Below are positions 26,279 to 45,334 of a stretch of 64,000 nt of DNA, piece after piece. Origin of the DNA: Epilithonimonas hungarica. GTDB lineage: Bacteria > Bacteroidota > Bacteroidia > Flavobacteriales > Weeksellaceae. Under the pieces are notes generated by a model. It was not told where the DNA came from. It searched no databases and saw nothing but the letters and a program-made list of their open reading frames with translations. Location: assembly GCF_900102265.1 (NCBI RefSeq), contig NZ_FNBH01000003.1, positions 372,001 to 436,000 on the forward strand, read 5' to 3'. A program made the translations under genes and the position numbers. Numbering within the stretch: position 1 is the stretch's first letter; every line of letters starts with the position of its first letter.

Positions 26279-28279
26279 ATGCAGGGAGAAGACGATTTAA
26301 GAGGATTAGCCAAAATAATGGCTTTTATGCGGGCAGTAAGTATTCTTTTGGTACTGATGCACCTTTATTGGTTCTGCTACGGGTTCTTTTTGGAACATGG
26401 CTGGACACTGGAAATTATCAATAAAATATTGGGCAACTTTGACCGTACGGCAGGTTTGTTCTCACACACCTTATATACCAAAGTATTTGCTTTGGTATTG
26501 CTTGCACTAAGCTGTTTGGGAACCAAGGGAGTGAAGAACGAAAAAATAACCTGGTCTAAAATTTATGCGGCTTTGGGAGTTGGCTTTGTCCTCTTTTTTC
26601 TGAATTTCCCTTTTTTGAAACTACCAGTATTAACTGCTACATTTTTTTATATCCTTACTACAGCTTTAGGCTATATCGCATTAATGGTTGCCGGAGTTTG
26701 GATGAGCCGGTTGCTTCGTACCAACCTGATGGATGATGTTTTCAACAACGAGAACGAAAGTTTTCAGCAGGAAACCAAGCTGATGGAAAACGAATATTCT
26801 GTTAATCTTCCCACGAAGTTCTATTACAAAGGAAAATGGAATAACGGCTGGATCAATATCGTCAATCCATTCAGGGCATCAATCGTATTGGGTACTCCGG
26901 GTTCTGGAAAATCGTATGCCATCGTAAACAATTACATCAAACAGCAGATAGAGAAAGGTTTCAGTATGTACATCTACGATTTCAAGTTTGACGACCTTTC
27001 TACCATTGCTTACAATCACTTGCTGAAGCACAGGGACAAGTATAAAATTCAGCCCAAATTCTACGTCATCAACTTTGACGACCCACGCAAGAGCCACCGT
27101 TGTAATCCGTTGAACCCCGACTTTATGACGGACATTTCGGATGCTTACGAAGCGGCTTATACCATTATGCTAAACCTCAACAGGTCGTGGATACAGAAGC
27201 AAGGTGATTTTTTCGTGGAAAGCCCAATTATCCTGTTGGCAGCAATAATCTGGTATCTGAAAATTTATGAAAATGGTAAGTATTGTACATTTCCACACGC
27301 CATTGAATTGCTCAATAAAAAGTATTCAGACGTATTTACCATCTTGACTTCCTATCCCGATTTGGAAAACTACCTATCGCCTTTCATGGACGCCTGGCAA
27401 GGCGGTGCACAAGACCAATTACAAGGGCAGATTGCATCGGCAAAAATTCCTCTATCGAGAATGATTAGCCCACAATTATATTGGGTAATGACCGGAGATG
27501 ATTTTACGCTAGACATCAACAACCCCAAAGAACCAAAGATTTTGTGCGTGGGCAATAATCCCGACCGTCAGAATATCTATTCCGCAGCATTGGGTTTGTA
27601 TAATTCAAGAATTGTAAAACTCATCAACAAAAAAGGACAATTAAAGAGTTCGGTTATCATTGATGAGCTGCCTACAATTTACTTCAGAGGCTTGGACAAC
27701 CTTATCGCCACTGCCAGAAGCAACAAAGTTGCAGTTTGCTTAGGCTTCCAGGATTTTTCGCAGTTGATAAGGGATTATGGCGATAAGGAAGCCAAGGTTA
27801 TTCAAAATACGGTTGGTAATATATTCAGTGGGCAGGTAGTTGGAGAAACGGCAAAAAGCCTTTCGGAACGTTTCGGTAAGGTATTGCAGAAACGCCAAAG
27901 TATGACCATCAACCGCAACGATAAATCTACCTCTATTTCCACACAGTTAGACAGCCTTATTCCGGCTTCCAAAATTTCAACGCTTACACAGGGAATGTTT
28001 GTTGGTTCCGTGTCTGATAATTTTGACGAACGCATCGATCAAAAAATATTTCACGCAGAAATTGTAGTGGATAATGACAAGGTAGCTGCCGAAACCAAAG
28101 CCTATCAAAAAATACCAGAAATTTTATCTTTTGTGGATGAACAGGGCGAGGATAAAATGAAACAGCAAATTGAAAGCAATTACCGCCAAATAAAACAAGA
28201 TATTGTACAGATTATCGAAACGGAATTGGAGCGTATCAAAAACGACCCTGATTTACAGCATTTGGTGCAGCAGGGATAA
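26279..28279 (+). CDS. mobC: Type IV coupling protein MobC (VirD4/TraG-type)
   Basis: 666 residues. Several N-terminal membrane helices (~18-165) precede a cytosolic ATPase domain with Walker A GTPGSGKSYA (~203-212) and Walker B SSVIIDELPT (~457-465), and IASAKIPLSRMISPQLYWVM between. It couples the relaxosome to the secretion channel. A diverged copy of its last ~50 codons occurs again at 29532-29684. Confidence 0.95.
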   Translation: MQGEDDLRGLAKIMAFMRAVSILLVLMHLYWFCYGFFLEHGWTLEIINKILGNFDRTAGLFSHTLYTKVFALVLLALSCLGTKGVKNEKITWSKIYAALGVGFVLFFLNFPFLKLPVLTATFFYILTTALGYIALMVAGVWMSRLLRTNLMDDVFNNENESFQQETKLMENEYSVNLPTKFYYKGKWNNGWINIVNPFRASIVLGTPGSGKSYAIVNNYIKQQIEKGFSMYIYDFKFDDLSTIAYNHLLKHRDKYKIQPKFYVINFDDPRKSHRCNPLNPDFMTDISDAYEAAYTIMLNLNRSWIQKQGDFFVESPIILLAAIIWYLKIYENGKYCTFPHAIELLNKKYSDVFTILTSYPDLENYLSPFMDAWQGGAQDQLQGQIASAKIPLSRMISPQLYWVMTGDDFTLDINNPKEPKILCVGNNPDRQNIYSAALGLYNSRIVKLINKKGQLKSSVIIDELPTIYFRGLDNLIATARSNKVAVCLGFQDFSQLIRDYGDKEAKVIQNTVGNIFSGQVVGETAKSLSERFGKVLQKRQSMTINRNDKSTSISTQLDSLIPASKISTLTQGMFVGSVSDNFDERIDQKIFHAEIVVDNDKVAAETKAYQKIPEILSFVDEQGEDKMKQQIESNYRQIKQDIVQIIETELERIKNDPDLQHLVQQG

Positions 28280-28296
28280 TTTGTTTATAGGTATTC

Positions 28297-28338
28297 AAAA
28301 AACAGGCTTTGCAATTTCAAAAGCAAAGCCTGTTTAAA
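28297..28338. terminator. Terminator between mobC and the nitroreductase gene
   Basis: A perfect 13-bp stem (AAACAGGCTTTGC with GCAAAGCCTGTTT; 28300-28312 and 28323-28335) with A/T runs on both sides, working for both convergent genes. Confidence 0.85.
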
Positions 28339-28347
28339 ACCACAAGT

Positions 28348-29046
28348 TTATTTTTGAGTGAAGTCATCAAGAGTTTGTTCCATTGGTGGTTCGGCTATGT
28401 CTGACGCATCGTCAATCGTCATTTCCACGATGAATTTATCTTTCGGAATACGAAATTTCTTCATATTGACGAGCCAATCATTTTCTGTTTGCCGATAACC
28501 CAAAGGTAAAATTACCGTGCTTTTATAACCACTGCCCTTCAGATTTAAAAGTTCGTCCAATTTTTCCGCAATAAAACCTTCCATTGGTGTAGCATCCACT
28601 TTTTGTTCCGCCGCTGCGGCAATTGCCATAGCAAAAGAAATATAGCTTTGTTTTGCAGCGTGATGGGCTTGCCATTCTTGTCCTGCTTCCTCATATAGAT
28701 TTAAGATAGTTTTTCTGTATGAATCCATAGTGTTATGAGGTAAATTCCGTTCATCCATCATATCGTTGAAAACACCTTCAATCCGATCGTCGCTATAACC
28801 ATCCCAAGCTATCCAAATCAACAGATGTGAACAGTCTGTAATCTGGCTTTGATGATATGAAAATCCTTTGATTTTTTCCAATAAAGCCCTATCAGAGATT
28901 ACAATGATTTTGTACTGTTGTAGTCCTGAAGAAGATGGGGCTAATCTTGCAGCTTCTAATATATAATCTAATTTTTCTTTCGGAATCTTCTGTCCGTTCA
29001 TCTTCTTTGTAGCATAACGCCACTTTAAGTCTTCTATTAAAGCCAT
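28348..29046 (-). CDS. NAD(P)H-dependent nitroreductase-family oxidoreductase
   Basis: 232 residues matching FMN-dependent nitroreductases: N-terminal WRYATKKMNGQKIP, EAARLAPSSSGLQQYKIIV (FMN contact) and a C-terminal GSGYKSTVILPLGYR segment. Such enzymes reduce nitroaromatics, quinones or other electrophiles. It is transcribed away from an adjacent HxlR regulator, the usual arrangement for a redox-responsive pair. Confidence 0.9.
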   Translation of the reverse strand: MALIEDLKWRYATKKMNGQKIPKEKLDYILEAARLAPSSSGLQQYKIIVISDRALLEKIKGFSYHQSQITDCSHLLIWIAWDGYSDDRIEGVFNDMMDERNLPHNTMDSYRKTILNLYEEAGQEWQAHHAAKQSYISFAMAIAAAAEQKVDATPMEGFIAEKLDELLNLKGSGYKSTVILPLGYRQTENDWLVNMKKFRIPKDKFIVEMTIDDASDIAEPPMEQTLDDFTQK

Positions 29047-29151: not shown

Positions 29152-29502
29152 ATGGCAGACGATAAATTCCAAAAAGATTGTAAGAAAAAAATTATGGCGG
29201 TTCACGATGCAATGGATGTGCTTAACGGCAAATGGAAAATATCCATTGTCGCCTCGCTATGTTATCACAACAAAAGGAGGTTTTCAGAAATTTTAAATGA
29301 CGTAAACGGGATTTCCAACAAAATGCTGAGCAAAGAACTAAAAGAGTTGGAAATAAACAAACTTGTAAAACGCACCGTTTTAGATACACAACCTGTCACC
29401 GTTCAATACGAACTTACTGAATACGGTAAAAAGTTACAAACCGTGATAAAAAATCTTACGGATTGGGGTGCGGAACACCGAAAAGAAATAATCGGAAAAT
29501 AG
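29152..29502 (+). CDS. HxlR-family transcriptional regulator
   Basis: 116 residues with the HxlR winged HTH: MDVLNGKWKISIVASLCYHN, RFSEILNDVNGISNKMLSKE, then ELTEYGKKLQTV. HxlR proteins commonly sense electrophiles or oxidants through cysteines; two Cys are present (Lys-Asp-Cys near residue 8 and Cys in SLCYH). It is divergent from the nitroreductase gene it probably controls. Confidence 0.92.
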   Translation: MADDKFQKDCKKKIMAVHDAMDVLNGKWKISIVASLCYHNKRRFSEILNDVNGISNKMLSKELKELEINKLVKRTVLDTQPVTVQYELTEYGKKLQTVIKNLTDWGAEHRKEIIGK

Positions 29503-29531
29503 TTACTTTCTTTCTGGCATCAACGATCAGC

Positions 29532-29684
29532 TACATATCCTTTGTTGATGAAAGCGGAGAAGATAATATGAAGCAGCAGATTGAAGGCAATTACAGCCAG
29601 ATAAAGGGAGACATTTTGAATATTGTAGAAAACGAATTGGAACGCATCAAGAATGACCCCGATTTACAGCATTTGGTACAATAG
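29532..29684 (+). pseudogene. Remnant of a mobC 3' end
   Basis: Translation reads FVDESGEDNMKQQIEGNYSQ and continues to a stop at 29682-29684. It matches the C-terminal ~50 residues of the intact MobC at 26279-28279 almost throughout (both end ...NDPDLQHLVQ), but with many silent differences at the DNA level, so it is not a recent duplication. No start or domain belongs to it; it is a leftover gene end. Confidence 0.85.
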
Positions 29685-29804
29685 GGATAACGGTCGGATA
29701 GCGTGGCTTGATTGAAAAAGCTGTCATTCTATTACACAAACCTTGTTCTGATTTCATCAGTTTTTTCAGTTTATATTTTCAATAGCTAAAATTCATCAAA
29801 AAAA

Positions 29805-29820
29805 TATACCTTTTGGTATA
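29805..29820. promoter_or_regulatory. TetR operator candidate upstream of tetR
   Basis: TATACC-TTTT-GGTATA is a perfect palindrome extended by A/T runs to ~12-bp arms. It ends 9 bp before a good -7 element (TAACTTTG, 29830-29837) and 51 bp before the tetR start, where it would block transcription. Confidence 0.7.
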
Positions 29821-29870: not shown

Positions 29871-30464
29871 ATGACAAAGGCAGAAAGAACAAGACAATTT
29901 ATTATAGAGAAATCAGCCCCTTTATTCAACATAAAGGGATATGAAAGCACATCTTTATCTGACATTCAGGAAGCCACTAAGCTAACTAAAGGGGCTATCT
30001 ACGGAAATTTTTCTGATAAAAACGAATTGGCAATTGCAGCTTATAATTTTAATTGTTCCTACGCAATCGGGTTAATAAATAAGGCGGTAGCAAAAGCAGC
30101 AACGGCGAGGGAAGCCCTAATTGCTTACCCGAATTATTATGCTAAAAATTGGCAAACTGTTTTTAAAACAGGTGGCTGCCCATTGATGAACGCAGCAGTA
30201 GAAGCAGACGACCACTTGCATTATTTGAGGGATAGCGTTCGCAATGGGATGAAGCGATTTATGGAAACGTTGCAACTGACCATTGAGCGTGGGCAAGCAA
30301 ATAACGAGTTCAAGGCAAAAGCCAATTCGGAAGAATATGCGGCATTGATATACAGTATAATGGAGGGAAATATAATGTTGGCCAAGATTATGAATGACCC
30401 AAAGTATTTTCAAATTGCAGCAAGGCATATAGAAAGCATTATTGAACGGGAATTGTCAGTGTAA
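29871..30464 (+). CDS. TetR/AcrR-family transcriptional regulator
   Basis: 197 residues: an N-terminal HTH (SLSDIQEATKLTKGAIYGNF, ~28-47) and a C-terminal helical ligand-binding domain with KTGGCPLMNAAVEADDH, seen in the TetR_C_6/YxaF-like group. It is flanked on both sides by TATACC-N4-GGTATA palindromes, suggesting that it represses itself and the downstream cargo operon. Confidence 0.92.
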   Translation: MTKAERTRQFIIEKSAPLFNIKGYESTSLSDIQEATKLTKGAIYGNFSDKNELAIAAYNFNCSYAIGLINKAVAKAATAREALIAYPNYYAKNWQTVFKTGGCPLMNAAVEADDHLHYLRDSVRNGMKRFMETLQLTIERGQANNEFKAKANSEEYAALIYSIMEGNIMLAKIMNDPKYFQIAARHIESIIERELSV

Positions 30465-30481
30465 TTTTTTTTGAATATTAA

Positions 30482-30497
30482 TATACCGATGGGTATA
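30482..30497. promoter_or_regulatory. Second TetR operator candidate, after tetR
   Basis: TATACC-GATG-GGTATA repeats the arms of the upstream palindrome exactly with a different 4-nt centre. It lies 17 nt after the tetR stop and before the small ORF and thioesterase operon. A further half-site (GGTATAT) is at 30673. Confidence 0.65.
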
Positions 30498-30728: not shown

Positions 30729-31223
30729 ATGAGTAAGAAAGATAGAACAAGAACCCATGAGTGGGCAAACCCCTTGGAGTTGGCAGCACAGGCAAAAACA
30801 ATGTCCGGCTTTGATTTTCTGAAAGGCATTTTAAATGGCGAAATACCACAAGCACCCATAGCAGAAACATTAGGTTTCCACCCATTGAGTTTGGAAAAGG
30901 GAAAAGCTGTTTTTGAATTTGAGCCACAGGAATTTCACTACAATCCTATTGGCAGCGTTCACGGCGGCGTAATTACTACCGTGTTGGATACGGTTATGGG
31001 TTGTTCGCTTCAATCCGCATTGCCACAGGGCGTAGCATATACTACATTGGAACTGAAAGTAAATTTTCTTAAAGCAGTTAGCCATAAAAACGGTAAACTG
31101 AACTCTACAGGGAAAATTATCCATTTGGGCAAAAGCACGGCACTTGTGGAAGCTGACCTAAAAGACGAAGACGGAAAAATATATGCGCACGGAGTTTCAA
31201 CATGTATGCTGTTCAATCTTTAA
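30729..31223 (+). CDS. PaaI-family thioesterase (hotdog fold)
   Basis: 164 residues. The hotdog core has the HGG motif in YNPIGSVHGGVITTVLDTVM, followed by GVAYTTLELKVNFLKAV. PaaI-type enzymes hydrolyse acyl- or aryl-CoA thioesters. First larger gene of the TetR-flanked operon; no signal peptide. Confidence 0.9.
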   Translation: MSKKDRTRTHEWANPLELAAQAKTMSGFDFLKGILNGEIPQAPIAETLGFHPLSLEKGKAVFEFEPQEFHYNPIGSVHGGVITTVLDTVMGCSLQSALPQGVAYTTLELKVNFLKAVSHKNGKLNSTGKIIHLGKSTALVEADLKDEDGKIYAHGVSTCMLFNL

Positions 31224-31256
31224 CCTTAATCCTTATTGAAATAAACCAATAATACA

Positions 31257-31736
31257 ATGATAACAATAAGCAACTTCAATAAATCAGACCAAAGGGAAGC
31301 GAAAAATTTCGTTCTGAATATTCAGAATGTTGAATTTCTGTTAGGGTTCACAGAGGCAGAACAGCCCGACCTTGGCGACTTGGAAAAGTTTTATTCTAAT
31401 GGTGGATTTTGGGTTGCAAAAACAGACAATGAAATCATTGGTACGATTGGCTTACAAAGACTTAATGACAGCAATGGGATATTGAGAAAAATGTTTGTGA
31501 AGAAAGAGTACAGGGGAAAAGCGTTTGGTATAAGCCAACAACTTTTTGACACACTGATTGACTTCGCAAAAGCCAATGAAATAAAAAATATCTGGTTAGA
31601 CACGCCGGGCATTGCAACAGCATCCCACAAGTTTTATGAACGTAACGGCTTTCGGCCGGCAGATAAAACAAACTTACCACAAGGGTATGTATATCCTGAC
31701 AGAAATTCCAAAATATACACACGAACAATCAACTGA
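31257..31736 (+). CDS. GNAT-family N-acetyltransferase
   Basis: 159 residues with the GNAT order: NEIIGTIGLQRL, acetyl-CoA-binding LRKMFVKKEYRGKAFGISQQ (an RGKxxG form of motif A) and ASHKFYERNGFRPA near the end. Substrate cannot be told from sequence. It is inserted between the thioesterase and the Old Yellow Enzyme, directly ahead of a leftover OYE gene end. Confidence 0.9.
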   Translation: MITISNFNKSDQREAKNFVLNIQNVEFLLGFTEAEQPDLGDLEKFYSNGGFWVAKTDNEIIGTIGLQRLNDSNGILRKMFVKKEYRGKAFGISQQLFDTLIDFAKANEIKNIWLDTPGIATASHKFYERNGFRPADKTNLPQGYVYPDRNSKIYTRTIN

Positions 31737-31741
31737 AAAAT

Positions 31742-31783
31742 ATGGGTAGTAAAGGCTACACCGATTACCCAGCCATCCATTAA
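31742..31783 (+). pseudogene. Remnant of an Old Yellow Enzyme 3' end
   Basis: Fourteen codons read MGSKGYTDYPAIH and stop. They match the C-terminus of the intact enzyme downstream (EKGYTDYPAINK, stop at 32929), with several silent differences. It is too short to be a gene and most simply is the end of a lost second copy. Confidence 0.6.
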
Positions 31784-31834
31784 TTACATAATTACAGAAT
31801 AATAAACAGTCTAATTTTTAAACACATAAAAACA

Positions 31835-32929
31835 ATGGCAAATTCAAAAATTTTTGAGCCTTACAACAAAAACGGCTTGCAACTCCGTAACCGTATCGCA
31901 ATGGCACCGATGACACGTTCACGCTCTGCCAATGAAGGGAATGTAGCAACAGAACTAACTGCTACATACTACCAACAACGGGCTTCCGCAGGGCTGATTA
32001 TTACGGAGGGAACCACCATCAGCGAAGAGGCCATAGGCGTAGTAAATGTTCCCGGTATTTACACACAGGCACAGGTAGCAGGTTGGAAATTAACTACCCA
32101 AGCCGTGCACCAAAAAGGCGGAACAATCTTCGCACAGCTTTGGCATACGGGAGCGTATTCACACGCTGACCTGCACAACGGCAAAAAACCGTTAGCACCA
32201 TCAAACGTCAATCCCAATCAACAGGTGTTTACGGCATCAGGCTTCAAGCCTTCCGAAGACCCCCAGCCAATGACCATTGAAGATATAAAAAGAACAGTGG
32301 CAGATTTTAAGCAAGCAGCAATCAATGCGTTTGAAGCAGGGTTTGATGGTGTAGAATTACACGGAGCAAACGGCTATCTGTTGCAGCAATTCTTTTCAAA
32401 AAATTCAAATACCCGAACCGATGAATACGGCGGATCTATTGAAAACCGTGCCCGTATTCTTTTTGAAATCCTGGATGAACTGAAACAAGCAGTGGATATC
32501 GCAAAAGTAGGCGTCCGTTTTAATCCCTCTCTGAACGGCATTATGGGCATCTTGGTTGACGATGAAACTGTAGCCCTGTACGATTATATCGTAAACAGGC
32601 TGAATGATTACGGCTTGGCTTATATCCACTTGACGGAGCCGTTTACAGACGTTACCGACAACGCAGATGCCATACAGGAAGTAGCAAAGCATTTTCGCAA
32701 AATATACAAAGGTACCATCATCATCAACAGAGGCTTTACCAAAGATACAGCCAACGAAGTTTTGAATAATGGCGATGCCGATTTAGTATCATTTGGAACA
32801 CTGCTTCTTGCCAATCCCGATTTGGTGGAGCGTTTCAAAACCGATGCACCGCTTAATCAGCCCGATGAGGAAACCTTTTACACACCGGGAGAAAAAGGAT
32901 ATACCGATTATCCGGCCATTAACAAATAA
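31835..32929 (+). CDS. Old Yellow Enzyme family alkene reductase
   Basis: 364 residues, full length for FMN-dependent OYE (NemA/12-oxophytodienoate reductase type). Visible are NRIAMAPMTRSRS, the active-site-region GVELHGANGYLLQQF (His pair in HGANGY), NTRTDEYGGSIENRARI and the C-terminal ADLVSFGTLLLANPDL. It would reduce activated C=C bonds or nitro-esters with NAD(P)H. Confidence 0.94.
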   Translation: MANSKIFEPYNKNGLQLRNRIAMAPMTRSRSANEGNVATELTATYYQQRASAGLIITEGTTISEEAIGVVNVPGIYTQAQVAGWKLTTQAVHQKGGTIFAQLWHTGAYSHADLHNGKKPLAPSNVNPNQQVFTASGFKPSEDPQPMTIEDIKRTVADFKQAAINAFEAGFDGVELHGANGYLLQQFFSKNSNTRTDEYGGSIENRARILFEILDELKQAVDIAKVGVRFNPSLNGIMGILVDDETVALYDYIVNRLNDYGLAYIHLTEPFTDVTDNADAIQEVAKHFRKIYKGTIIINRGFTKDTANEVLNNGDADLVSFGTLLLANPDLVERFKTDAPLNQPDEETFYTPGEKGYTDYPAINK

Positions 32930-32960
32930 TCAACAATCGTTTAATTTTAAATACAATACA

Positions 32961-33695
32961 ATGAAAGTAACAGGAAATACCGTCTTCATCAGTGGCGGAA
33001 GTGCCGGAATTGGTTTGGCAATCGCAAAAAAACTAAGTGCCGCAGGCAACAAAGTTATCATCAACGGGCGTAGTGAAGAACGCTTACAAAAGGCGTTGAA
33101 AGAATTGGATAATGCCATTGCCATTCAGGGCGATTTATCGGTAGAAGCCGACAGGCTCCGCATTGCGGCACAGCTAAAAGAGCAGTACCCAGATGTAAAC
33201 ATCATCATCAACAATGCAGGAGCCGCATTCGGGTATTTGTTAAGCGAAACCACCAATGCACACGAAAAGGCGCAGATAGAAATGAATACAAACTATTTTT
33301 CTGTAATCCATTTCACGGAATTGTTGTTGCCCCACTTGCTACAAAAAGAAGAAGCCGCAGTAGTCAATATTTCTTCTATTGCTGTTTATGGCAGCCATAA
33401 GTTTTTACCAACTTACGGAGCAACTAAAGCGGCTTTGCACGGTTATACATCCGCATTACGAATGACTTACGAAGAACAAAAAAATGTTCAGGTCTACGAA
33501 GTATATCCGCCATTGGTAAACACTGAATTTTCTGCGGAAATAGGCGGTGCAAACGGTATTCCACCGTCAGAAGTTGCAGACGAGCTGTTTGTTGCACTGG
33601 AAAAAAATCAGTTTGAGGTTCCTGTGGGCGAAACAAAAAAATACGCGGCGGCATTGGAGGAAGCATTTGCAAACCTTTCCCGTACCAGAGGATAA
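32961..33695 (+). CDS. SDR-family oxidoreductase (DltE-like)
   Basis: 244 residues from ATG 32961; an upstream frame from 32793 lies in the preceding gene. The Rossmann motif is SGGSAGIGLAIAKKL, then NNAG, catalytic Ser in NISSIAVYGSHK and Tyr-x-x-x-Lys in YGATKAAL. Substrate unknown. A close paralogue is encoded at 35689-36456 in the same operon. Confidence 0.9.
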   Translation: MKVTGNTVFISGGSAGIGLAIAKKLSAAGNKVIINGRSEERLQKALKELDNAIAIQGDLSVEADRLRIAAQLKEQYPDVNIIINNAGAAFGYLLSETTNAHEKAQIEMNTNYFSVIHFTELLLPHLLQKEEAAVVNISSIAVYGSHKFLPTYGATKAALHGYTSALRMTYEEQKNVQVYEVYPPLVNTEFSAEIGGANGIPPSEVADELFVALEKNQFEVPVGETKKYAAALEEAFANLSRTRG

Positions 33696-33710
33696 ACTTC
33701 TATGGTAATG

Positions 33711-33742
33711 AACTACTGCCGGCAACAATACCGGCAGTAGTT
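33711..33742 (+). other. Perfect 12-bp hairpin inside the cargo operon
   Basis: AACTACTGCCGG and CCGGCAGTAGTT flank an 8-nt loop. No T-run follows, so it is more likely an mRNA processing or stabilising hairpin, or an attenuator, than an efficient terminator. Confidence 0.55.
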
Positions 33743-33780
33743 GTACCAATAATTTAATCGTTAAACAGAAAACAATATTT

Positions 33781-34665
33781 ATGAAAAAAGTAGTTGTAGC
33801 AGGCAGTGGGGTTTTAGGCTCACAAATAGCATTTCAAACAGCGTTCCATCATCATCAGGTGGTAGTATATGATTTAAAGGACGAATTTCTTGAGAAAGGA
33901 AAGGAAAAAATACGGCTTCTTTTCGATGATTATAAAAGGGATCTAAATGCCACGCAGGAACAATTGGATGCTGCATTCACAATGATCTCTTACTCATCAG
34001 TTCTCCGGGAAGCGGTACAAGATGCCGATATTGTTATTGAGGCAATTCCTGAAAACATACAAATCAAAAAGGATTTCTACATCGAGTTAGGAGCTTTAGC
34101 ACCAGATAAAACCATCTTCTGTACCAATTCTTCCACATTATTGCCAAGCCAGTTTGCAGCAGAAACAGCCAGGCCTGAAAAGTTTTTGGCACTGCATTTT
34201 TTGAATGGAGTATGGAAGAATACCATAGTGGAAGTGATGAGGCATCAGGGAACCGCCCCCGCTGTATTTGAGGAAATAGTCGCCTTTTCCAAATCCATTG
34301 GTTTAACCCCTTTGCAATTACGCAAAGAACAGCCAGGATACATTACCAACTCATTAAGTGTTCCGTGGGTTGCGGCAGCTTTGAGATTATGGGCAGATGA
34401 TGTGGCCGACTTCCAAACAATAGATAAGACGTGGAATATCGGTATGAACACTAAATTCCCTCCGTTTGCATTTATTGATGCGGTTGGTTTGAACACAGCT
34501 TATAATATTATGAAAAATCTGTCCGAACAGCAAAATGACAGCATACTTGAAAAAGGTGCTAACAGGCTTAAAGAGGATTATATTGAAAAGGGCAAGCTGG
34601 GCGTTTCCACAGGCGAGGGATTTTACAAGTACCCTAACCCCGCCTATCTGGATGAACAGTTTTAA
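33781..34665 (+). CDS. 3-hydroxyacyl-CoA dehydrogenase family protein
   Basis: 294 residues with the N-terminal NAD-binding motif VVVAGSGVLGSQIAFQTAF, the middle ADIVIEAIPENIQIKKDFY and TIFCTNSSTLLPSQFA, and a C-terminal helical domain ending GVSTGEGFYKYPNP. This matches 3-hydroxybutyryl-CoA-type dehydrogenases. The catalytic His would be in KFLALHFLNGVW, where bona fide enzymes have GxHFFNP; the Pro is absent, so the substrate may differ. Confidence 0.88.
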   Translation: MKKVVVAGSGVLGSQIAFQTAFHHHQVVVYDLKDEFLEKGKEKIRLLFDDYKRDLNATQEQLDAAFTMISYSSVLREAVQDADIVIEAIPENIQIKKDFYIELGALAPDKTIFCTNSSTLLPSQFAAETARPEKFLALHFLNGVWKNTIVEVMRHQGTAPAVFEEIVAFSKSIGLTPLQLRKEQPGYITNSLSVPWVAAALRLWADDVADFQTIDKTWNIGMNTKFPPFAFIDAVGLNTAYNIMKNLSEQQNDSILEKGANRLKEDYIEKGKLGVSTGEGFYKYPNPAYLDEQF

Positions 34666-34679
34666 AGTGAAAATAAAAA

Positions 34680-35096
34680 ATGGAAAATAGAAAACAAACA
34701 GGTCTGAAAAATCTGCACTTGTTGGTTTCAGTAGTGCTTGTATTTGCAATTGCATTGACTTACGGTTTCTTTCCTGAAAAAATCATTCCGGCTCTGGCAG
34801 ACATCAGAACGGATAGCAATGACCTTAGCAATGCTTTTAAAGCCGTTATGGGTTTGTATTTGGGGATAGCCGCTTTTTGGGCACTTGGTATTGCACGTTC
34901 CCAATTTTGGAAGTCCGCTACGCTGGTCAATATATTCTTTATGTTCAGTCTGGTTATAGGAAGAATAACCAGTCTGGCAATAGACGGTTTTCCAACCCCA
35001 AGTATGCTTTCCGGTATCGTGCTTGAACTGTTATTAGGAATATGGGGACTGATAAGTCTTAGTGTTTATTCCAAAAGACCGGATATAGGATTATAA
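34680..35096 (+). CDS. DUF4345-like small membrane protein
   Basis: 138 residues with four hydrophobic helices (LHLLVSVVLVFAIALTYGFF; AVMGLYLGIAAFWALGIA; ATLVNIFFMFSLVIGRITSL; LSGIVLELLLGIWGLISLSV). This is the DUF4345 form, function unknown. It is within the cargo operon, 14 nt after the dehydrogenase gene. Confidence 0.75.
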   Translation: MENRKQTGLKNLHLLVSVVLVFAIALTYGFFPEKIIPALADIRTDSNDLSNAFKAVMGLYLGIAAFWALGIARSQFWKSATLVNIFFMFSLVIGRITSLAIDGFPTPSMLSGIVLELLLGIWGLISLSVYSKRPDIGL

Positions 35097-35183
35097 ATTT
35101 AGGACGACAAAGGAACGCATCATCAAATAAGGGCAGTTTGATATCCTGTTGGTGCAGCAAAAAAAAACTTCAAATAAGGTGCT

Positions 35184-35684
35184 ATGGAATTAAGGGAAAA
35201 AACAACTCACGAACAGGATTTATTCATCACGATCATTCTCAAAAACTGGCTTTTACAGGTAAAGCGTGGCAAAGTGCTTCTTGACGGCATTAGCGAAGAT
35301 GAAATAATGAAAGAAGTTGCTCCGGGAAAAAACAGGGGTATCTACATTGTGGGACACATTATTGCTTACCACGACCTGATGGGCGAAATTCTTGGTTATG
35401 GAAAACGAAAGTATCCACAGTTGCAGCCAATTTTTATTGAAGCTGCGGACAAGTCCGGTTTGGAAATGCCCGGCTACGCTGAACTAAAAGCCCTGTATGA
35501 GGACGTGCATAAGCATATTGCCGAACAACTCGAAGTTCTTCCGACAGAACAATGGTATCAAAGGCACGAGGCAATGACCGATGAGGATTTTAAAAAAGAC
35601 CCCACTCGCAACAAACTTAATGTCTTAGTGAGCCGCATCAGCCACTTGGCTTATCACCTGGGGCAACTTAGACTACTTAAATAA
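35184..35684 (+). CDS. DinB-family protein
   Basis: 166 residues of the four-helix DinB/YfiT fold. Likely metal-binding histidines are in YIVGHIIAYHDLMGE and at the end SHLAYHLGQLRLL. Many DinB proteins are thiol-dependent S-transferases (bacillithiol/mycothiol class), but the substrate here is unknown. Confidence 0.82.
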   Translation: MELREKTTHEQDLFITIILKNWLLQVKRGKVLLDGISEDEIMKEVAPGKNRGIYIVGHIIAYHDLMGEILGYGKRKYPQLQPIFIEAADKSGLEMPGYAELKALYEDVHKHIAEQLEVLPTEQWYQRHEAMTDEDFKKDPTRNKLNVLVSRISHLAYHLGQLRLLK

Positions 35685-35688
35685 ACTT

Positions 35689-36456
35689 ATGAATTTAAAA
35701 GAAAAAACAATATTGGTAACGGGTGGAGCATCAGGCATAGGGCTTGAAGCAGCCAGACAGTTTTTAGAAATCGGAGCAAAGGTTATCATCACGGGCAGAA
35801 ATCAGGACAAACTGAATGCAGCAAAAAAGCTGTACCCGAATTTGATTGCCATAAAGAGCGATGTCGCCAAAGAAGAAGATGCCGTTTCCCTTTTCAAACA
35901 GGTAAAGGAGCTGGGCGGTATTGATATTCTTTATAACAATGCAGGCGTAGGCGTTCCACCGTTAAATTTAGGTATTGCCGATGAAAGGCATTTGGAAAAT
36001 GCTACATATGAGATAAACATCAATTACCTGGGTGTTATCCGTTTGAACAATCTTTTCTTGGATATACTGAAATCAAGAAAAGAGAGTGCTATCATCAATA
36101 CAACTTCCATACTTAGTTATGTCCCCTCATTGCTTGAAGCTACCTATTCGGCTTCAAAGGTTGCTTTGAAATTTTATACCCAATCGCTTCGGGAACATTT
36201 ACGGATTGCAAACAGCAATGTAAAAGTGTTTGAACTGTTACCGCCATTGGTTGCTACCGAAATGACGGCAGGAAGAAACGACAAGAAGTTAAGTCCTGAA
36301 AAATTAGTACAAGGGTTGATAAGCGGATTGGAAAACGACCAGTACACCATTCGTGTGGGCGATACAAAAGCAGTTTATTTCATCAACAGGCTTTTTCCAA
36401 AACTGGCGTTTAACCTGGTTAACCCGAAAAAGACGGACGAACAATTAAAACCATAA
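35689..36456 (+). CDS. SDR-family NAD(P)-dependent oxidoreductase
   Basis: 255 residues with TGGASGIGLEAARQF, ILYNNAGVGVPP, NTTSILSYV and catalytic YSASKVAL. It resembles DltE-type short-chain dehydrogenases and the paralogue at 32961-33695. It follows the DinB gene after 4 nt and precedes the hydrolase after 2 nt. Confidence 0.9.
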   Translation: MNLKEKTILVTGGASGIGLEAARQFLEIGAKVIITGRNQDKLNAAKKLYPNLIAIKSDVAKEEDAVSLFKQVKELGGIDILYNNAGVGVPPLNLGIADERHLENATYEININYLGVIRLNNLFLDILKSRKESAIINTTSILSYVPSLLEATYSASKVALKFYTQSLREHLRIANSNVKVFELLPPLVATEMTAGRNDKKLSPEKLVQGLISGLENDQYTIRVGDTKAVYFINRLFPKLAFNLVNPKKTDEQLKP

Positions 36457-36458
36457 AA

Positions 36459-37400
36459 ATGAATATTATGAATAAAATAAGAAACGCCCTTTTGCTTGGT
36501 TGTGGCATTTTCCTGTTGGCAAGCTGCACAGGGAATGAAAATGCAAAAACACCTGTAAATCGGGTTGAATACAAAACCGACAGCGTTAAAGTGAATGGCA
36601 ATTATTTCACTTATCGAAAGACAGGAACAAATACCAAAACAGCCATTCCGCTTATTTTATTCATACATACCCGTGGCAACTTGGATAGCTGGGATGGCGC
36701 ATTGATTGAAAAATTGGCATCGGAACGTACTGTTATTACTTTCAATAATCGTGGTGTGGCAAGTTCAGGCGGACAAACGCCCGAAAGTTTTGCGTTAATG
36801 GCGGAAGACGGTTATCAATTCATCAAGGCACTTGGTTATGATAAAGTGGATGTGCTTGGTTTTTCAATAGGCGGTTGCGTAGCACAGGAATTACTTGTAT
36901 CACACAATGAAATTGTACGCAATGCGATATTGGCGGGAACTTCGCCCAAAGGAGCAACAAGCATCAACCAGCGTGACCCTAAAATTGCTGAAATGGTGAC
37001 AAGACCTACATTGGGACTGGACGAGTTTTTAGCACTCTTTTTCAATGCTTCCGACAAAAGCCGTGAATTGGGAAAGGCATTTTGGGAACGTAAACAAAAC
37101 AGCAAATACCCGAAAGATGTGGTAGTGAGTAAAGAAGCTGCCAAGGCACAAGCCAAAGCCAGGTTAGATTGGGGAAATGATACACTAAACACTATCAATT
37201 ACAAAAACATAACCAACCCTGTTTTAGTAGCCAATGGAAAAGTAGATGTCCAGATGCCTACGCATAATTCGGTTGACCTGTATAACCTGCTGCCAAATGC
37301 CCAGCTTAATCTATATCCCGATGCAGGACACGGATTTTTGTTCCAATATCCTGAAATTGTCGGTAGTGATATAAACCGGTTTTTAAACTCAAATAATTGA
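36459..37400 (+). CDS. Alpha/beta-hydrolase lipoprotein
   Basis: 313 residues. The N-terminus has a lipobox (LLASC, ~20-24), so the protein is lipid-anchored outside the inner membrane. The alpha/beta-hydrolase fold shows LILFIHTRGNLDSW, nucleophile elbow GFSIGG (Ser), the acid in VANGKVDVQMP and His in PDAGHGFLFQ. Esterase or related activity; substrate unknown. Confidence 0.88.
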   Translation: MNIMNKIRNALLLGCGIFLLASCTGNENAKTPVNRVEYKTDSVKVNGNYFTYRKTGTNTKTAIPLILFIHTRGNLDSWDGALIEKLASERTVITFNNRGVASSGGQTPESFALMAEDGYQFIKALGYDKVDVLGFSIGGCVAQELLVSHNEIVRNAILAGTSPKGATSINQRDPKIAEMVTRPTLGLDEFLALFFNASDKSRELGKAFWERKQNSKYPKDVVVSKEAAKAQAKARLDWGNDTLNTINYKNITNPVLVANGKVDVQMPTHNSVDLYNLLPNAQLNLYPDAGHGFLFQYPEIVGSDINRFLNSNN

Positions 37401-37411
37401 TAAAAAAGAGG

Positions 37412-38413
37412 ATGAAAGCATTTACAATAAACCGTTACAGCAAGGAAGATAAATTGCAATTGGTTGAAGTTCCCGAGCCTATCGTTAAAGAAAATGACGT
37501 GTTGGTAAAAATCCATTCGGCAAGCATCAATCAATTAGATGCGAAAATAAAAAGTGGCGAGTTCAAATTATTACTTCCATACAAGTTCCCTTTGATTTTA
37601 GGACACGATGTAGCAGGTATAATAACCAAAGTGGGTTCCAAAGTCAGCCGTTTCAAAGTTGGAGATGAAGTGTTTGCCCGTCCTGCTGATTTCCGTATCG
37701 GCACTTTTGCGGAATACATTGCCATCAATGAAAGCGATGTTGCCCTAAAGCCCGCAACTATTTCAATGGAAGAAGCGGCATCCATCCCGTTGGTTGCACT
37801 AACGGTTTGGCAGGCATTTGTTGAAAAAGCAAAACTTCAAAAAGGGCAAAAAGTATTTATACAGGCAGGTTCCGGCGGTGTCGGAACTATTGCCATTCAA
37901 TTAGCAAAACATTTGGGGGCAACCGTAGCCACAACCACAAGTGCCAGTAATTTTGAATTGGTCAAAAGTCTTGGAGCCGATGTTGTCATAGATTATCGGA
38001 AAGAAGATTTTGAAAATGTATTGATAGATTATGATTTGGTATTGAATAGTCAAGATGTTAAAACGCTCGAAAAATCATTAAATATTCTAAAAGAAAGAGG
38101 AAAAGTCATTTCGATTTCCGGACCACCTGATACGGCTTTTGCAAAAGAAATCGGTCTGTCCTGGTTGATGAAAACCGTTATTTTCTTTTTGAGTAGAAAA
38201 GTCAAAAACCAGGCAAAAAAACTCGATGTAGATTATTCTTTTTTGTTTATGCAAGCCAACGGCAAGCAGTTGGCACAAATCAGCTCATTGATTGAAACCG
38301 GTGTTATCCGCCCCGTTATAGACAAAGTTTTTCCGTTTGAACAGACCAATGAAGCATTCTCCTACGTAGGAAGCGGACGGGCAAAAGGAAAAGTAGTGAT
38401 AAAGGTTCAATAG
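37412..38413 (+). CDS. Quinone-oxidoreductase-like NADP-dependent enzyme (MDR family)
   Basis: 333 residues from ATG 37412. There is a GroES-like domain (LPYKFPLILGHDVAGIITKV), no catalytic zinc cysteines visible, and a Rossmann motif GSGGVGTIAIQLAKHLGA. This is the zeta-crystallin/quinone oxidoreductase branch of the medium-chain reductases, using NADPH on quinones or enones. Eleven nt follow the hydrolase stop. Confidence 0.92.
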   Translation: MKAFTINRYSKEDKLQLVEVPEPIVKENDVLVKIHSASINQLDAKIKSGEFKLLLPYKFPLILGHDVAGIITKVGSKVSRFKVGDEVFARPADFRIGTFAEYIAINESDVALKPATISMEEAASIPLVALTVWQAFVEKAKLQKGQKVFIQAGSGGVGTIAIQLAKHLGATVATTTSASNFELVKSLGADVVIDYRKEDFENVLIDYDLVLNSQDVKTLEKSLNILKERGKVISISGPPDTAFAKEIGLSWLMKTVIFFLSRKVKNQAKKLDVDYSFLFMQANGKQLAQISSLIETGVIRPVIDKVFPFEQTNEAFSYVGSGRAKGKVVIKVQ

Positions 38414-38429
38414 TAAAATCACATCATTT

Positions 38430-39830
38430 ATGGCACAAAATTCTAACAGGTGGTTACAGCACCTCATTTTGCTTACAGCGCCATTGCTAACGGTAATAGA
38501 TGTATTTATCGTGAACATTGCCATACCGTCCATTAAGCAAAGCCTGAACGCATCAGACAGCGAGGTGGAATTGGTAATTGCGTTCTATCTGTTAGGATAT
38601 GCTTCCTTTATGGTTACAGGAAGCAGGGCTGGTGACATATTTGGAAGAAAAAAGATTTTCCTGTGGGGTATGTTTCTCTTTGTGCTTACTTCCTGTTTGT
38701 GCGGGATGGCAACGAGTGCAGAAATGCTGATTGCAGCAAGGTTTTTTCAGGGAGTAAGCGGGGCATTTATGATGCCGCAGGCATTGGCTTACGTTCAGGT
38801 ACTTTTTCCCGAACCACAAGAACGCACCAAAGCAATCGGCTATGTGGGTATTACTTTGGGTACAGCTTCCGTATTGGGGCAGTTTTTAGGTGGCTATTTT
38901 TCAAGTTTGCAGACATTTATTGAGGGCTGGCGGTTTATCTTTTTCATCAATTTGCCCATCGGCATTATTGCCTTTGCCGCCGCAAAAAAATACCTCATCA
39001 ATACCAAACTCAATTCCGAAGAAAAATTTGATTATTCGGGCGTAGTGCTGTTTACGCTGGCATTAGGCAGTCTGATATATCCGCTCACAGAGGGCAGGGA
39101 AAAAGGTTATCCCTTGTGGAGTGTTGCAATGATTGCATTTTCGCTGATACTGTTTTACATCTTCATCGTCAATCAAAAAAAGAAATTACAAAAAAAACAG
39201 CATCCCCTAATGGATATACGCTTGTTCAAAATCAGGGATTTTAATTTAGGCTTGGTATTGCTTACCTTTTATTTCGCAATGCACACGTCCTATTTGCTGG
39301 TGTCCACAATCTATTTTCAGAATGGGTTGCATCTTACATCATTTCAAACGGGAATATACTTTGCCATTTGGGGCAGTTGTTTTACGGTAGCTTCGTTTCT
39401 TTCCATTCGTTTGGTCAATGCCTATGGCAAAAGGCCCATACAATTTGGAGTAGCATTAATGATATTGGTGTATCTGCATCAACTTATTTATTTTGATAGC
39501 GAAGTAAGCCAGATAACACTATTAACCAACTTGCCATTGCTTGGTTTTGGTGGCGGTTTAGTGCTGCCGTCTTTAATCAACCTTACATTAAAAAACGTAC
39601 CGCCACAATTTGTGGGCATCGCTTCGGGTACATACAACACAGCACAGCAAACGGCATCTTCATTAGGTATATGTTTGATAGGCGGTTTGTTTTTCAGCAT
39701 TTCCAAAGCGACAAATGATTTCGTTTCAGCATACCATTACAGCGTATATGCTGAAATATTCTGCCTGCTCATTGCCTTTGTGATACTCTATTTCATTGAA
39801 GATTTTAAAAAGAAAAAGGTCACTGCATAA
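38430..39830 (+). CDS. MFS efflux transporter (DHA2 family)
   Basis: 466 residues with about 12-14 membrane helices. Helix 1 carries VIDVFIVNIAIPSIK, loop 2-3 motif A is GSRAGDIFGRKKIF, and GAFMMPQALAYVQVLFP is the helix-4/5 signature of EmrB/QacA-type DHA2 pumps. Proton-driven export of drugs or small hydrophobic toxins is likely. Last gene of the TetR-flanked operon. Confidence 0.92.
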   Translation: MAQNSNRWLQHLILLTAPLLTVIDVFIVNIAIPSIKQSLNASDSEVELVIAFYLLGYASFMVTGSRAGDIFGRKKIFLWGMFLFVLTSCLCGMATSAEMLIAARFFQGVSGAFMMPQALAYVQVLFPEPQERTKAIGYVGITLGTASVLGQFLGGYFSSLQTFIEGWRFIFFINLPIGIIAFAAAKKYLINTKLNSEEKFDYSGVVLFTLALGSLIYPLTEGREKGYPLWSVAMIAFSLILFYIFIVNQKKKLQKKQHPLMDIRLFKIRDFNLGLVLLTFYFAMHTSYLLVSTIYFQNGLHLTSFQTGIYFAIWGSCFTVASFLSIRLVNAYGKRPIQFGVALMILVYLHQLIYFDSEVSQITLLTNLPLLGFGGGLVLPSLINLTLKNVPPQFVGIASGTYNTAQQTASSLGICLIGGLFFSISKATNDFVSAYHYSVYAEIFCLLIAFVILYFIEDFKKKKVTA

Positions 39831-39913
39831 AATTCCAAACAAAATTCATTGACAGCTTGCGTGATGCGCTAATCAGGAGAATGGACGAACAGGGAGAAAT
39901 TGAGCTTACACGA
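39831..39913 (+). other. Coding-like stub between MFS gene and helicase
   Basis: The plus strand from 39848 reads a plausible segment (SLRDALIRRMDEQGEIELT) with no start or domain, then runs into the antisense of the next gene. It may be another leftover 3' gene end at the right edge of the cargo block; no parent gene is present in the window, so this is weak. Confidence 0.25.
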
Positions 39914-42900
39914 TTACAGTACGCCTCTTGGCAAATGAATACCTTTTGTCCGTACAATATTCTCCGAATTATTTGGCGTTTCTTTCTGCTTTTCTACCTG
40001 CTCCGAAGGTTCTCCTTTAGTTTCCGGCGTAATGGATAACTGTATCTTTCGCTCAACGGCAGCCAGTTCCGTTTTAAGTTCGCTCAATCTGCTTTCTTTA
40101 GACCACGTACCGTTTACCACTTCCTGAAGAATGGGCAGGTCTTTTTGCATCTCCGCAATTTTCTTTTGTTCCTGCTCGATATAGCCGGGCAATTTCTCCA
40201 GTGCGTTAAGGAAGTTCATAGCCGCCAATTTTTCATCTTTAGCGATGATACCGTTATTGTAGGTGTATTTGATATTGCCCTCGCCCTGAATAAAGAAACG
40301 GTTATTCTTTTCTACAAGGCTACTACTGTCTTTTTGCGACATTTCCGTTTTTACCAAAAGCTGAAAACCGTAAAGGCTTCCGATTTCCTCATAATCTCCG
40401 CCTGTGCGGGCTTTTTCCGTAAGCTGGTTGAGTTTTGCGCCAATCTGTTTTATATCCGCATTGGGTGGTAAGCCGTCCAGCCTTACGGCATTTACGATTG
40501 TTCCGTCCGAATGTTTTTGGATACGCCCCTGCAGATTATTCCAATCAAGGCTCATTCGGTCAAAGCGGGATTGGGTTTTATCCAATTCTGCCGTATAGTC
40601 TTCCAGTTTATATTTCGCACTGAATTTGGAACGGTTAAACGCCTGCTTTTCACTTTCCAGCCCGGCAATCTGTTTTTCCAGTTTGGCTTTATCCAGAAGG
40701 TCCGTATTTCCTGAAAGGATGGCCACGTATTCCGAAAAGTTCATTCCCGATTTTTCGTCCATGCTACCCTCATCAATGGTACGTTTGCCGAGATTGTTGG
40801 TTTTTAATTGGTCTATAAAAAGTTGCTTGTTGTACAACAGGTTGAACTTGTAACTATCCAATGATTTTTCTACGGCATAGATAATCACATCTACTTTATT
40901 ATCGGCAAAGAACTTGGCAATCTCATTGCCCTTTCTTACAGCTCTGCCATCACGTTGGGCAAGATCGCTTGGTCGCCACGGTGTATCCAGGTGATGTACG
41001 GCCACGGCTCTTTTCTGTGCATTTACGCCCGTTCCCAGCATACTTGTAGAACCGAACAGCACACGAATTCTCCCTTCGTTCATACCTTTGATAAGCTCCT
41101 TACGCTGCTTATCGGTTTTAGCTTCCTGTATAAAGCGGACTTCGTGTGCTGGTATGCCGTGGTCTTCTGTGAGCTTGCGTTTGATTTCGGAGTACACATT
41201 CCATTCGCCCGGCTTGTAGGTCCCCAAATCGGAGAAAACGAACTGTGTTCCTTTCTGTGCGTTGTATTGATTGTAATACTTGGCAATGTTTGCCGCACAA
41301 TGTGAAGCCTTGTTATCGGGATGGTCTTCGTACCTGCCGCTTACCATTCGCATATCGAGCGACATCTTACGGGCGTAGTCCGTAGCGATGAGCATCTTTG
41401 CCTTTTCCTCACTTGCTGATAAAGCAGGTCTTCCCAACAGTTCCGCATTGCCCGTTTTGGCAAAATCCATCAGCTTTTTGATGAATACTTCCTGGTCGGG
41501 CGTAGGCGGTATGTTATACAGCACTTCGTTTTTATTCGGGCGGTCAATGCCTATATCTTTTGCCGTCCGGTAATCTGTGATTTCCGAATAGAATTGAGCC
41601 AGTTCCGGCACTTTGATAAAGTAGCGGAAGCGTTCTTTGGCTACGATATTGTTGGCCACCGAAAATTCATAATCAGTAGTTTTCCTTGCATAGATGGCTG
41701 CCCACGCATCAAAGGAATGAATGCCTTGTTTTTCCAATGCCCGTGGTCGCAGGTATTTGAACAGCAGATATAGTTCGGTAAGCGAATTGCTGATAGTTGT
41801 ACCTGACAGAAAGGTAGCTCCCATATCCGCATTTGTGCGTTCCTGAATAGTACGGATAGCAAAGAGCAGGTTCAATGCTTTTTGGCTTCCGTCCACATTG
41901 CCCAATCCGGCTACCCTTGTATGCCTTGTGTTGAACATCAGGTTTTTGAATTGGTGGCTTTCATCAACGAACAAGTGGTCAATGCCCATCATCTTAAAAT
42001 CCACCACATCATCTTTGCGGTTTTCAATATCGTGTTGCAGGGTTTTGAGCTTGACTTCGAGGTTTTCTTTCCGCTTGATTACTCCGGCAAGCATCCCCCT
42101 GGTCACTTCCTTTCCCTGTGCTTCCAATGCTTCGAGGTTACGCTCTACGCTGTCTAATTCTATTTGGAGTATTTCTTTTTGAATTTCGGGCGATTGTGGT
42201 ATCATTCCGAATTGGTCGTGTGTCAGTATCACACAATCCCAATCGTTGTTTTTAATGTCGCCAAAAATCCGCAGGCGTTTTTGGGGCGTGAAATCTTCCT
42301 TGCCCGGAAACAGGATTTTTGCGTGAGGGTAAGCGGTACGATAGGCTTCCGCAATTTCGTGAACATTGCTTTTCAGCCCGATAATCATAGGTTTATGAGC
42401 TAACCCTAAACGCTTCATTTCCTGTGCAGCCGTACACATTACCAACGTTTTTCCTGCACCTACTTCGTGGTCGCAAATTGCCCCGTTGTTCAGCTTTATC
42501 ATCCAAACGGTGTCCTTTTGGCTGGAATACAGGTCTTCAATACCCAATGCCTTACGGTCTAATCCCGGAAAGTCCTGATGGCTGCCGTCATAGTTCGGTC
42601 GAACGAAACAGTTAAACGTATCGTTGTATTGGTCGGTCAGCCTGTTTTTAAACTCATCGTTTTGGGCGTGAAGCCAATCGGTAAAGGCGGTACGGATTTC
42701 GTCAATCTTGGTGTTCGCCATTTGTATGGCTTCCATATCCCGTACTTTAACCTCTTGATCGCCAACCGTAATTTTTTTGGTAATATCAGGCGTGGTATTG
42801 ACAAGGGCGTGTTTGAGCAGGGCAATCCCGTCAAACGTCCGGCTTTCTGCTTTGACAGCGTATTTTTCCCATATATGCAAATTCTTACGGTCGCACTTTA

Positions 42901-45334
42901 CAGAAAAGTCATCGGAGCTTTCAGAGTAATGAACGAGTACATCTGTATCAAAAAGATGTGAAGCAAATCGGGCGTAAATGCCTGTGGGTATCCAGCGTTC
43001 GCCCAAATTAAAATCGAGTTCCTCAAATTCGATACGTCTTGGTCGGGCTTCTTCCAAGACCGTAAGGCTTGCTTTGGCTTCGGTATCGTCGGGATTGTTT
43101 TCAATGTAGGTTTGTATCTCCCTGGCTTTTTCCACTACATTACCCGCAATCCAGCGTTCGGATATTTCATATTCCTTTTGCAGAGGATTATAGTAAATAC
43201 GACTGTGCAGGGCTTTTTTCAAAGCATCATCGGTCATACCGCTGATTTCGGACATATAGCCCAAATCCACGCTTCCGTATTTGTTCAGCGATGCTGCCAA
43301 CGCTTCTTCGGGATTGTCCGTTGCTACGGTTACGGTCGAAAAACTTACAGGATGGCTGAATATATCCGCTTTGTGTGTTACACCACCAACCACACGTTCC
43401 AGATAAGGTATTTCCTTACCGGAACTATCCGTTTTAATGAGCTTAATATTATCGGCACTGTTGAGGTTGCCATATCTTTTGACAAAGGCATCATACAAAC
43501 GGTTAAGGTTTTCCCTTTCTTCCTTGTATTCGGTCTGATGCTGTGCCTCTTTTGTGTAAAGCTGCTGGTAAACATCACGTACCGCAATGTAAGCCTCGGC
43601 TCTTGCTTTCTGCAAGGATGGCAATTGCAATGGATGGAACATTGCGGTGCTGTCTGATGTATTCACATTTTGAAGATGGCCTACCAAACCTCCATCCACA
43701 GCCAGGCAATCATTTCTATGGAACGTTTGCAGTAGGTCGCTGTACGGAGCAGGTTCGGGAATGGTATTACTTATATTTGGTTTTTCAACTTGTTGGTTTC
43801 CATTGATACTTGAAAACAGGTCGCCGATAATTTCCTGTTTTTCGCCATCGCCTGATGGGTTTTCATTGCTTGTTCGATTGCTAATAGGGGGCGTATAGGG
43901 TTGCTGCATCTCGCTACTGAACAGGTCGGGCTGGCGAACTATTGTGCCTCTTCTTTTATTAGTGCTTTGCGTTTTGGTTTGGATAGTTTTTTTAGGCGGA
44001 GCAAGAACCATTACAGGTTCGTTCGCATTTTCAAAAAGATCAAAAATGCTTAGCTGTTTTAATTCCTGTGGACTTTCCCGATTGCTTACCGGAACAGATA
44101 AAGGCTGTATGTCCTGTGGAATGATTACAGGTTCCAGAACCGGTGGGGTAACAGGGTTTTGTATTACGGGTTTATCATTCCGTTCGCCTTTATAAAGTTG
44201 TGTATCTAAATGGATGGAAAAATCTTCCATCAACTTTTGCTTCAAATCTTTGGCAATTCCGTCTACACCGCCTTCGTGCTCAAAAATAAGCGTAGGCTTT
44301 CCATAAGGATTTGTTCCTGTGTAGGACTTTGTATGAACGACAAGCACAGGATTGTCCAACAGGGAATTGGTTGATATTCCTTCCGAATTGGTGCGGGTAT
44401 CACAAAAAAGCATTTCCCGTTTGGATAGCATTTTTTTTCCGATACGCTTTTGGAGGATGATCAAATCACTTCCGACCTCCGTACCTGCATATTCTGTAAA
44501 AAGATTATTGGGCAACCTGATGGCAGATACCAGCTTATGCTCTTTCATCAATGCTTCACGAATGGCAAGATTAGAAGGGCTGTTCAATACCCCTTGCGAA
44601 GTAATGAACGCCAGTACACCACCATCACGGAGCATATCGGTTCCTTTCAGAAAAAAGTAATTGTGTATGCTTCGGGCTGCCTGCACTTTTGCAGGGTCTT
44701 TACTTCGGGAATAAGAAAGGTCGAAGACGGAAGTATCGCCAAACGGAATGTTGCTGGCGATTACATCGTAACTATTTTTTTCCTTTTCGGGGATTTCTTC
44801 AAAACCGCTTATACGGATATTGCTTTCGGGATAAAGCTGTTTTAGGATTTTGCCCGTGAGTAAGTCCTTTTCATAAGCAGTAACATTGGCTTTCTGATTT
44901 TCCGAAAAAGATTGGATAAATGAGCCGGTACCTGCTGAGGGTTCAAGGAATGTATCAATGTTCAAACCGCTTTCACGCAACGTTTCGGAAATCGCATCTA
45001 TGACCTGCGGCGGTGTATAAAAAGCCGTTAATACAGAGCTTTTCATACTATCCACGTATCTGCGGTATTGCTTATCGTCTGCTGAATTTTCTTTGAGTAG
45101 TTGGTGGAGTTCCTGCGTAAGCGGGAATAGGTCGTGTTCTGTCTTTCTCCAATGGTTGATGTCTATTTCATTCGCTATGGGGTTCAGCACGAATTTAAGA
45201 CCGCCAAATCCACTGTATTGCAGCATGAGCAGTCTTTCGCCTACGGTGGCTTGCCGGTTCTCCTTTTCCAGTTTAAAGGCAATTCGCAGGGCATCAATGT
45301 TCTGTTGGAGATGTTGCTTTTTACTGAAGCCCAT
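39914..45334 (-). CDS. Giant N6-adenine methyltransferase-SNF2 helicase fusion
   Basis: 1806 residues. The N-terminal methyltransferase (~100-330) has SAM motif [10 protein letters not shown] and catalytic motif IV SNIPFGD (an NPPF variant). A Gln/Pro-rich linker (~400-560) and the SF2 helicase follow, with Walker [12 protein letters not shown] (~960), DExH box VDESHQF and motif [20 protein letters not shown] (~1470). The C-terminal ~300 residues are coiled-coil-rich. Such proteins are common in Bacteroidetes ICEs and resemble DarB-like phage proteins thought to protect incoming DNA from restriction. It overlaps the DUF1896 gene by 14 nt. Confidence 0.92.

Follow-up and report, generated by a model that had tools for sequence, protein, structure and literature searches.

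The last ~50 codons of a second, diverged mobC gene lie within the cargo region of a conjugative element of Epilithonimonas hungarica, behind an intact mobC and a nitroreductase-HxlR gene pair. This remnant is very likely a recombination scar, at which the cargo genes of two ICEs were joined. The window, i.e. the whole 64,000-nucleotide stretch of DNA that was analysed, harbours Bacteroidetes-type conjugation genes (TraG, TIGR03783, E=0; TraM, TIGR03779, 8e-128), genes for the MobA/MobB relaxase and the MobC coupling protein (NF041324, NF041325 and NF041326, above cut-off), an intact rteC (PF09357, 57833-58681), a topoisomerase gene and a gene for a tyrosine-recombinase-type integrase, an XerA/XerC-like protein (1252-2502) that scores under the equivalog cut-offs. 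Judged by this gene content, the element is a Bacteroidota (CTnDOT-like) conjugative element. The features of its cargo region are listed in Table 1.

Table 1. Features of the cargo region and its borders (positions in the window)
Feature	Position	Strand	Evidence or remark
Intact mobC, type IV coupling protein, left border of the slot	26279..28279	+	NF041326 Bacteroid_MobC E=0, PF14293/PF02534
Spacer with terminator-like hairpin (aaacaggctttgc...gcaaagcctgttt), between convergent mobC and nitroreductase genes	28280..28347	.	sequence, self inverted match
Nitroreductase, cargo block 1	28348..29046	-	PF00881 1.1e-19
HxlR regulator, divergent from nitroreductase, cargo block 1	29152..29502	+	PF01638 1.7e-25
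Non-homologous junction, cargo block 1 / foreign mobC tail	29503..29535	.	
mobC' remnant, last ~50 codons of a second mobC lineage	29536..29690	+	79% nt / 81% aa to intact end
Operator-like palindrome ATATACCTTTTGGTATA ahead of tetR	29804..29820	.	second copy 30481-30497 behind tetR
TetR regulator, first gene of cargo block 2	29871..30464	+	PF00440/PF16925
Cargo block 2: thioesterase, GNAT, old yellow enzyme, SDR, 3-hydroxyacyl-CoA dehydrogenase, DUF4345, DinB, SDR, alpha/beta hydrolase, Zn-dehydrogenase, MFS	30729..39830	+	Pfam
Second leftover, last ~25 codons of an rteC paralogue	39835..39913	+	complete at the same position in relatives
N6-methylase/SNF2 helicase protein, right border of the slot	39914..45334	-	3' 300 bp 92-95% identical to G004

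A second mobC end in the cargo region

The remnant and the end of the intact mobC form an ungapped direct repeat (28125-28279 and 29536-29690) of ~79% nucleotide identity, in the same orientation and 1.4 kb apart. The homology breaks off abruptly at ~29536, 34 bases 3' of the hxlR stop. Read in frame, the remnant codes for SFVDESGEDNMKQQIEGNYSQIKGDILNIVENELERIKNDPDLQHLVQ*, 48 residues with 81% amino-acid identity to the MobC end, followed by a TAG stop (29682-29684) where the intact mobC has CAG. An initial annotation of this DNA had described a diverged mobC end behind the nitroreductase-HxlR pair, with the intact mobC ending before the pair. We confirm this arrangement, at 78-79% nucleotide identity between the two ends; the coordinates given (29532-29684) were right to a few bases, and the nitroreductase (PF00881), HxlR (PF01638), TetR (PF00440) and MobC (NF041326) genes had been correctly named.

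A blastn search of the same genome with the remnant yielded two places only, the remnant itself and the intact mobC end (E 2.7e-31), and a protein search returned the same two. Because exactly two places were found, the remnant represents neither a chance similarity nor an assembly mix-up with another copy. Neither search detected a third mobC copy in this genome, or any other mobC able to have donated the remnant. A 7-bp inverted repeat, CATCAAC/GTTGATG (29518-29550), spans the join; it may be due to chance or be a trace of template switching.

The interval between mobC and the methylase/helicase gene is a cargo slot

We compared eighty loci carrying a MobC relative. At several loci, mobC is arranged tail to tail with the gene for the 1800-residue methylase/helicase protein, at a distance of 60-85 bp. 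The interval is empty (60-85 bp) in L049/L051, L078, L084, L110, L112 and G097 (= L138), and amounts to 123 bp in L106. Elsewhere, it is filled with varied genes over 0.5-9 kb at the loci with both borders seen; in the window, it spans 11.6 kb. Since this interval is empty in several relatives and occupied in others, it constitutes a cargo slot of the ICE family, in agreement with the initial description of the stretch behind mobC as a cargo location. The majority of filled slots harbour no mobC repeat. An HxlR gene with a divergent enzyme gene is a recurrent first cargo behind mobC, found in unrelated elements (L071, L089, L136 and L192).

The gap between mobB and mobC exceeds 250 bp at 33 of 73 loci, and mobC is thus flanked by a variable slot on both sides. 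In the window, a gene for a heavy-metal P-type ATPase (23919-25958) is inserted between mobB and mobC.

The palindrome ahead of tetR and its second copy, which reads ATATACCGATGGGTATA, are both of the ATATACC-N4-GGTATA type, and the same pair flanks the homologous tetR genes of G279 (L136) and G655 (L205). From their sequence and position, these palindromes are likely TetR operators. At the other end of the slot, a complete rteC of ~275 codons directly precedes the methylase/helicase gene in L137, L139, L039, L066 and G231, the 275-residue product in L137 being assigned to RteC (PF09357). As this rteC is reduced to ~25 codons in the window, a leftover absent from the initial annotation, the right edge of the cargo region likewise carries a truncated backbone gene.

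Orphan mobC tails go with the cargo behind them

We found mobC tails without a contiguous gene body in G279, G231, G334, G386, G058 and G049, and a distant one in G235. The layout in G231 resembles that of the window: an intact mobC is followed by cargo headed by an HxlR-like gene, then by a mobC tail of 165 codons (from about codon 500), further cargo, rteC and the methylase/helicase gene. With its intact mobC upstream of the tail, G231 is an independent parallel to the window. The tails of G386, G058, G049 and G334 have no mobC upstream. A response regulator gene and further genes follow the tail of G386, and the same cargo lies behind an intact mobC in Sphingobacterium alimentarium and S. 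composti (77-85% nucleotide identity). Similarly, the metal-efflux cluster behind the tail of G049 has its counterpart behind an intact mobC in Paenimyroides aquimaris (93% over 5.1 kb). As the cargo of G386 and G049 is thus found behind intact mobC genes in other genera, the tail belongs with the cargo that follows it, which in the window is the TetR operon.

A relative with mobC' followed directly by this operon had been proposed as a supporting observation. G279 corresponds to it in part: a decayed 130-codon mobC tail, frameshifted and with stops, precedes a TetR operon homologous to that of the window, but the two are separated by a different HxlR gene and a further small gene. None of the genomes compared has an intact mobC' directly before the TetR operon of the window. 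The donor mobC' was also sought in 198 relatives and in 320 family, 396 order and 395 phylum genomes, none of which gave a match to the remnant above 84% nucleotide identity. A search of a plasmid collection with the region returned only distant HxlR, nitroreductase or thioesterase relatives and no donor; the mobC relatives in plasmids are mostly below 80% amino-acid identity.

The tails start at different codons, about 500, 535, 597, 617 and 629, a spread of ~130 codons, with shared starts at ~617 (window and G058) and ~597 (G386 and G334). Such variable truncation points argue against site-specific entry at the end of mobC. The cargo slot behind mobC is real, but the mobC 3' end as the entry point is too narrow a description: besides the differing truncation points, the slot extends over the entire mobC-helicase interval, and there is another variable slot upstream of mobC. 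In L189 (8445) and L194 (8440), orphan mobC tails of two genera have the same start codon (~597) and unrelated flanks.

A probable join between two related elements

We observed the slot, the tail of foreign type, the recurrence of such tails and the linkage of tail and cargo in other genomes; for the encounter of two ICEs, the type of join and the order of events, we infer the following. In this ICE family, passenger genes accumulate in the interval between mobC and the methylase/helicase gene that converges on it, and a copy of rteC frequently closes the distal side. Two related ICEs would have met in one cell, one with its mobC and the nitroreductase-HxlR pair, the other with a different mobC and the TetR operon. 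A non-homologous join would then have fused the sequence immediately 3' of hxlR with the second mobC at codon ~617, so that only the final 50 codons of that gene, presumably without a function of their own, remained ahead of the TetR operon. The far end could have been closed by a homologous crossover in the shared backbone, as in homology-facilitated illegitimate recombination, or alternatively by deletion of the middle of a tandem ICE pair.

The backbone is a mosaic, the nearest relative switching every few hundred bases on both sides of the join, and a sharp breakpoint at ~40230 in the methylase/helicase gene separates a segment of 92-95% identity to G004 (39914-40230) from one of 67%. Homologous exchange in the flanks is thus common.

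In the initial annotation, the nitroreductase-HxlR pair was taken to have probably arrived by recombination with a different ICE. The origin of the tail in a different mobC lineage stands, but the pair is only one candidate for the newcomer: the tail is linked to the TetR operon, and the incoming part may be on either side. The order in which the right half (mobC' tail, TetR operon and helicase gene) was resident and the left half (intact mobC and the pair) arrived is symmetric with the opposite order and quite possible, if somewhat short of an even chance. Orphan tails that lack an upstream mobC (G386, G058, G049 and G334) indicate that left halves do get lost, but no nearest-relative signal marks either half as resident, the scan for the resident half having given no consistent answer on either side of the join.

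A foreign tail versus a duplicate or a displaced end

A tandem duplication of the element's own mobC 3' end, followed by insertion of the pair and divergence, could also have produced two copies in the same orientation, 1.4 kb apart. Identical copies, which the initial annotation had named as the signature of tandem duplication, were not seen (~79% nucleotide identity). Of 144 sites compared, 32 differ between the remnant and the intact end, and 22 of these are third codon positions; the change is silent in 16 codons and alters the residue in nine, with no stop. For the neutral drift of a useless duplicate, ~5 silent changes, 19 changed codons and 1.4 stops are expected, and the observed silent count was reached in none of 20000 fully neutral simulations. 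With only half of the changes placed neutrally on the remnant, however, a count of changed codons this low has a probability of 0.07. Intact tails compared in pairs at equal distance give a similar picture (13.0 silent to 10.8 changed codons).

Tails in other genomes match the intact end at 90% identity and the best match of the remnant reaches 84% of nucleotides, whereas the two share only ~78% with each other, and they fall in different supported clades of the tree. The mostly silent divergence and the separate clades are in line with the initial proposal that the tail stems from a different mobC lineage. Nevertheless, an AU test on the only 144 columns did not reject sisterhood of the remnant and the intact end (p 0.35), a weak point of the case for a foreign tail. 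This tree test alone is too weak to settle the matter, and the pattern of substitutions argues against simple duplication, which we consider improbable.

The arrangement of an intact gene, an insert and a displaced 3' end is also reminiscent of a site-specific cassette or IME that inserts in the mobC 3' end and restores mobC, as happens at tRNA ends, in which case the remnant would be the displaced original end. Paired tail starts, at ~617 in the window and G058 and at ~597 in G386 and G334, would fit such a process. However, the 1.4-kb insert encodes only the nitroreductase and HxlR and no integrase, the junction is not constant, with tails beginning at about five positions over ~130 codons, a 155-bp stretch of 79% identity does not qualify as an att core, and most filled slots are devoid of a mobC repeat, all of which makes this scenario very improbable. 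Finally, that the 50-codon tail, or a 73-codon TTG frame (29463-29684) running through it, is a functional small gene is hardly credible: the frame is open, but it overlaps hxlR out of phase, needs a TTG start inside hxlR, and the tail of G279 is frameshifted and contains stops.

Discussion

The reading of the remnant as the scar of a join between two ICEs has counterparts in known systems. ICEEa1 of Elizabethkingia anophelis, a T4SS-B or CTnDOT-type ICE, carries two rteC genes and metal-efflux cargo (PMC5458099). It shares with the element of the window a Bacteroidetes-type T4SS, a relaxase, a coupling protein, a tyrosine integrase and RteC (PMC5458099). Unlike ICEEa1, the window has one rteC cut to ~25 codons, cargo of the oxidoreductase and fatty-acid type, and a foreign mobC tail. 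In streptococci, tandem and hybrid ICEs are known, and elements are reshuffled by module exchange, deletion and tandem accretion (PMC5053989). These hybrids are likewise joined and reshuffled elements, but they are att-driven (PMC5053989), in contrast with the join of the window, which has no visible att site and only a truncated backbone gene. Homology-facilitated illegitimate recombination occurs at low frequency in E. coli conjugation (PMC3240628). With one homologous and one non-homologous end, it would leave exactly one abrupt join in mobC', and it may have acted in the window.

All in all, the region illustrates the ordinary mosaicism of ICEs, here with a scar that is well preserved. A more speculative and rather unlikely extension is that mobC, with cargo slots on both sides, serves as a homologous handle, its 3' tail travelling with the cargo so that any ICE of the family could pick up or stack cargo; codons ~597 and ~617 would then be preferred breaks.

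Bacteroidota ICEs carry metal, stress and drug tolerance genes of their host bacteria. In any genome, the interval from mobC to the methylase/helicase gene can easily be checked for cargo, and truncated backbone tails such as mobC' are tags that tell which cargo came from which element, with which acquisition events in Bacteroidota ICEs may be counted and ordered.
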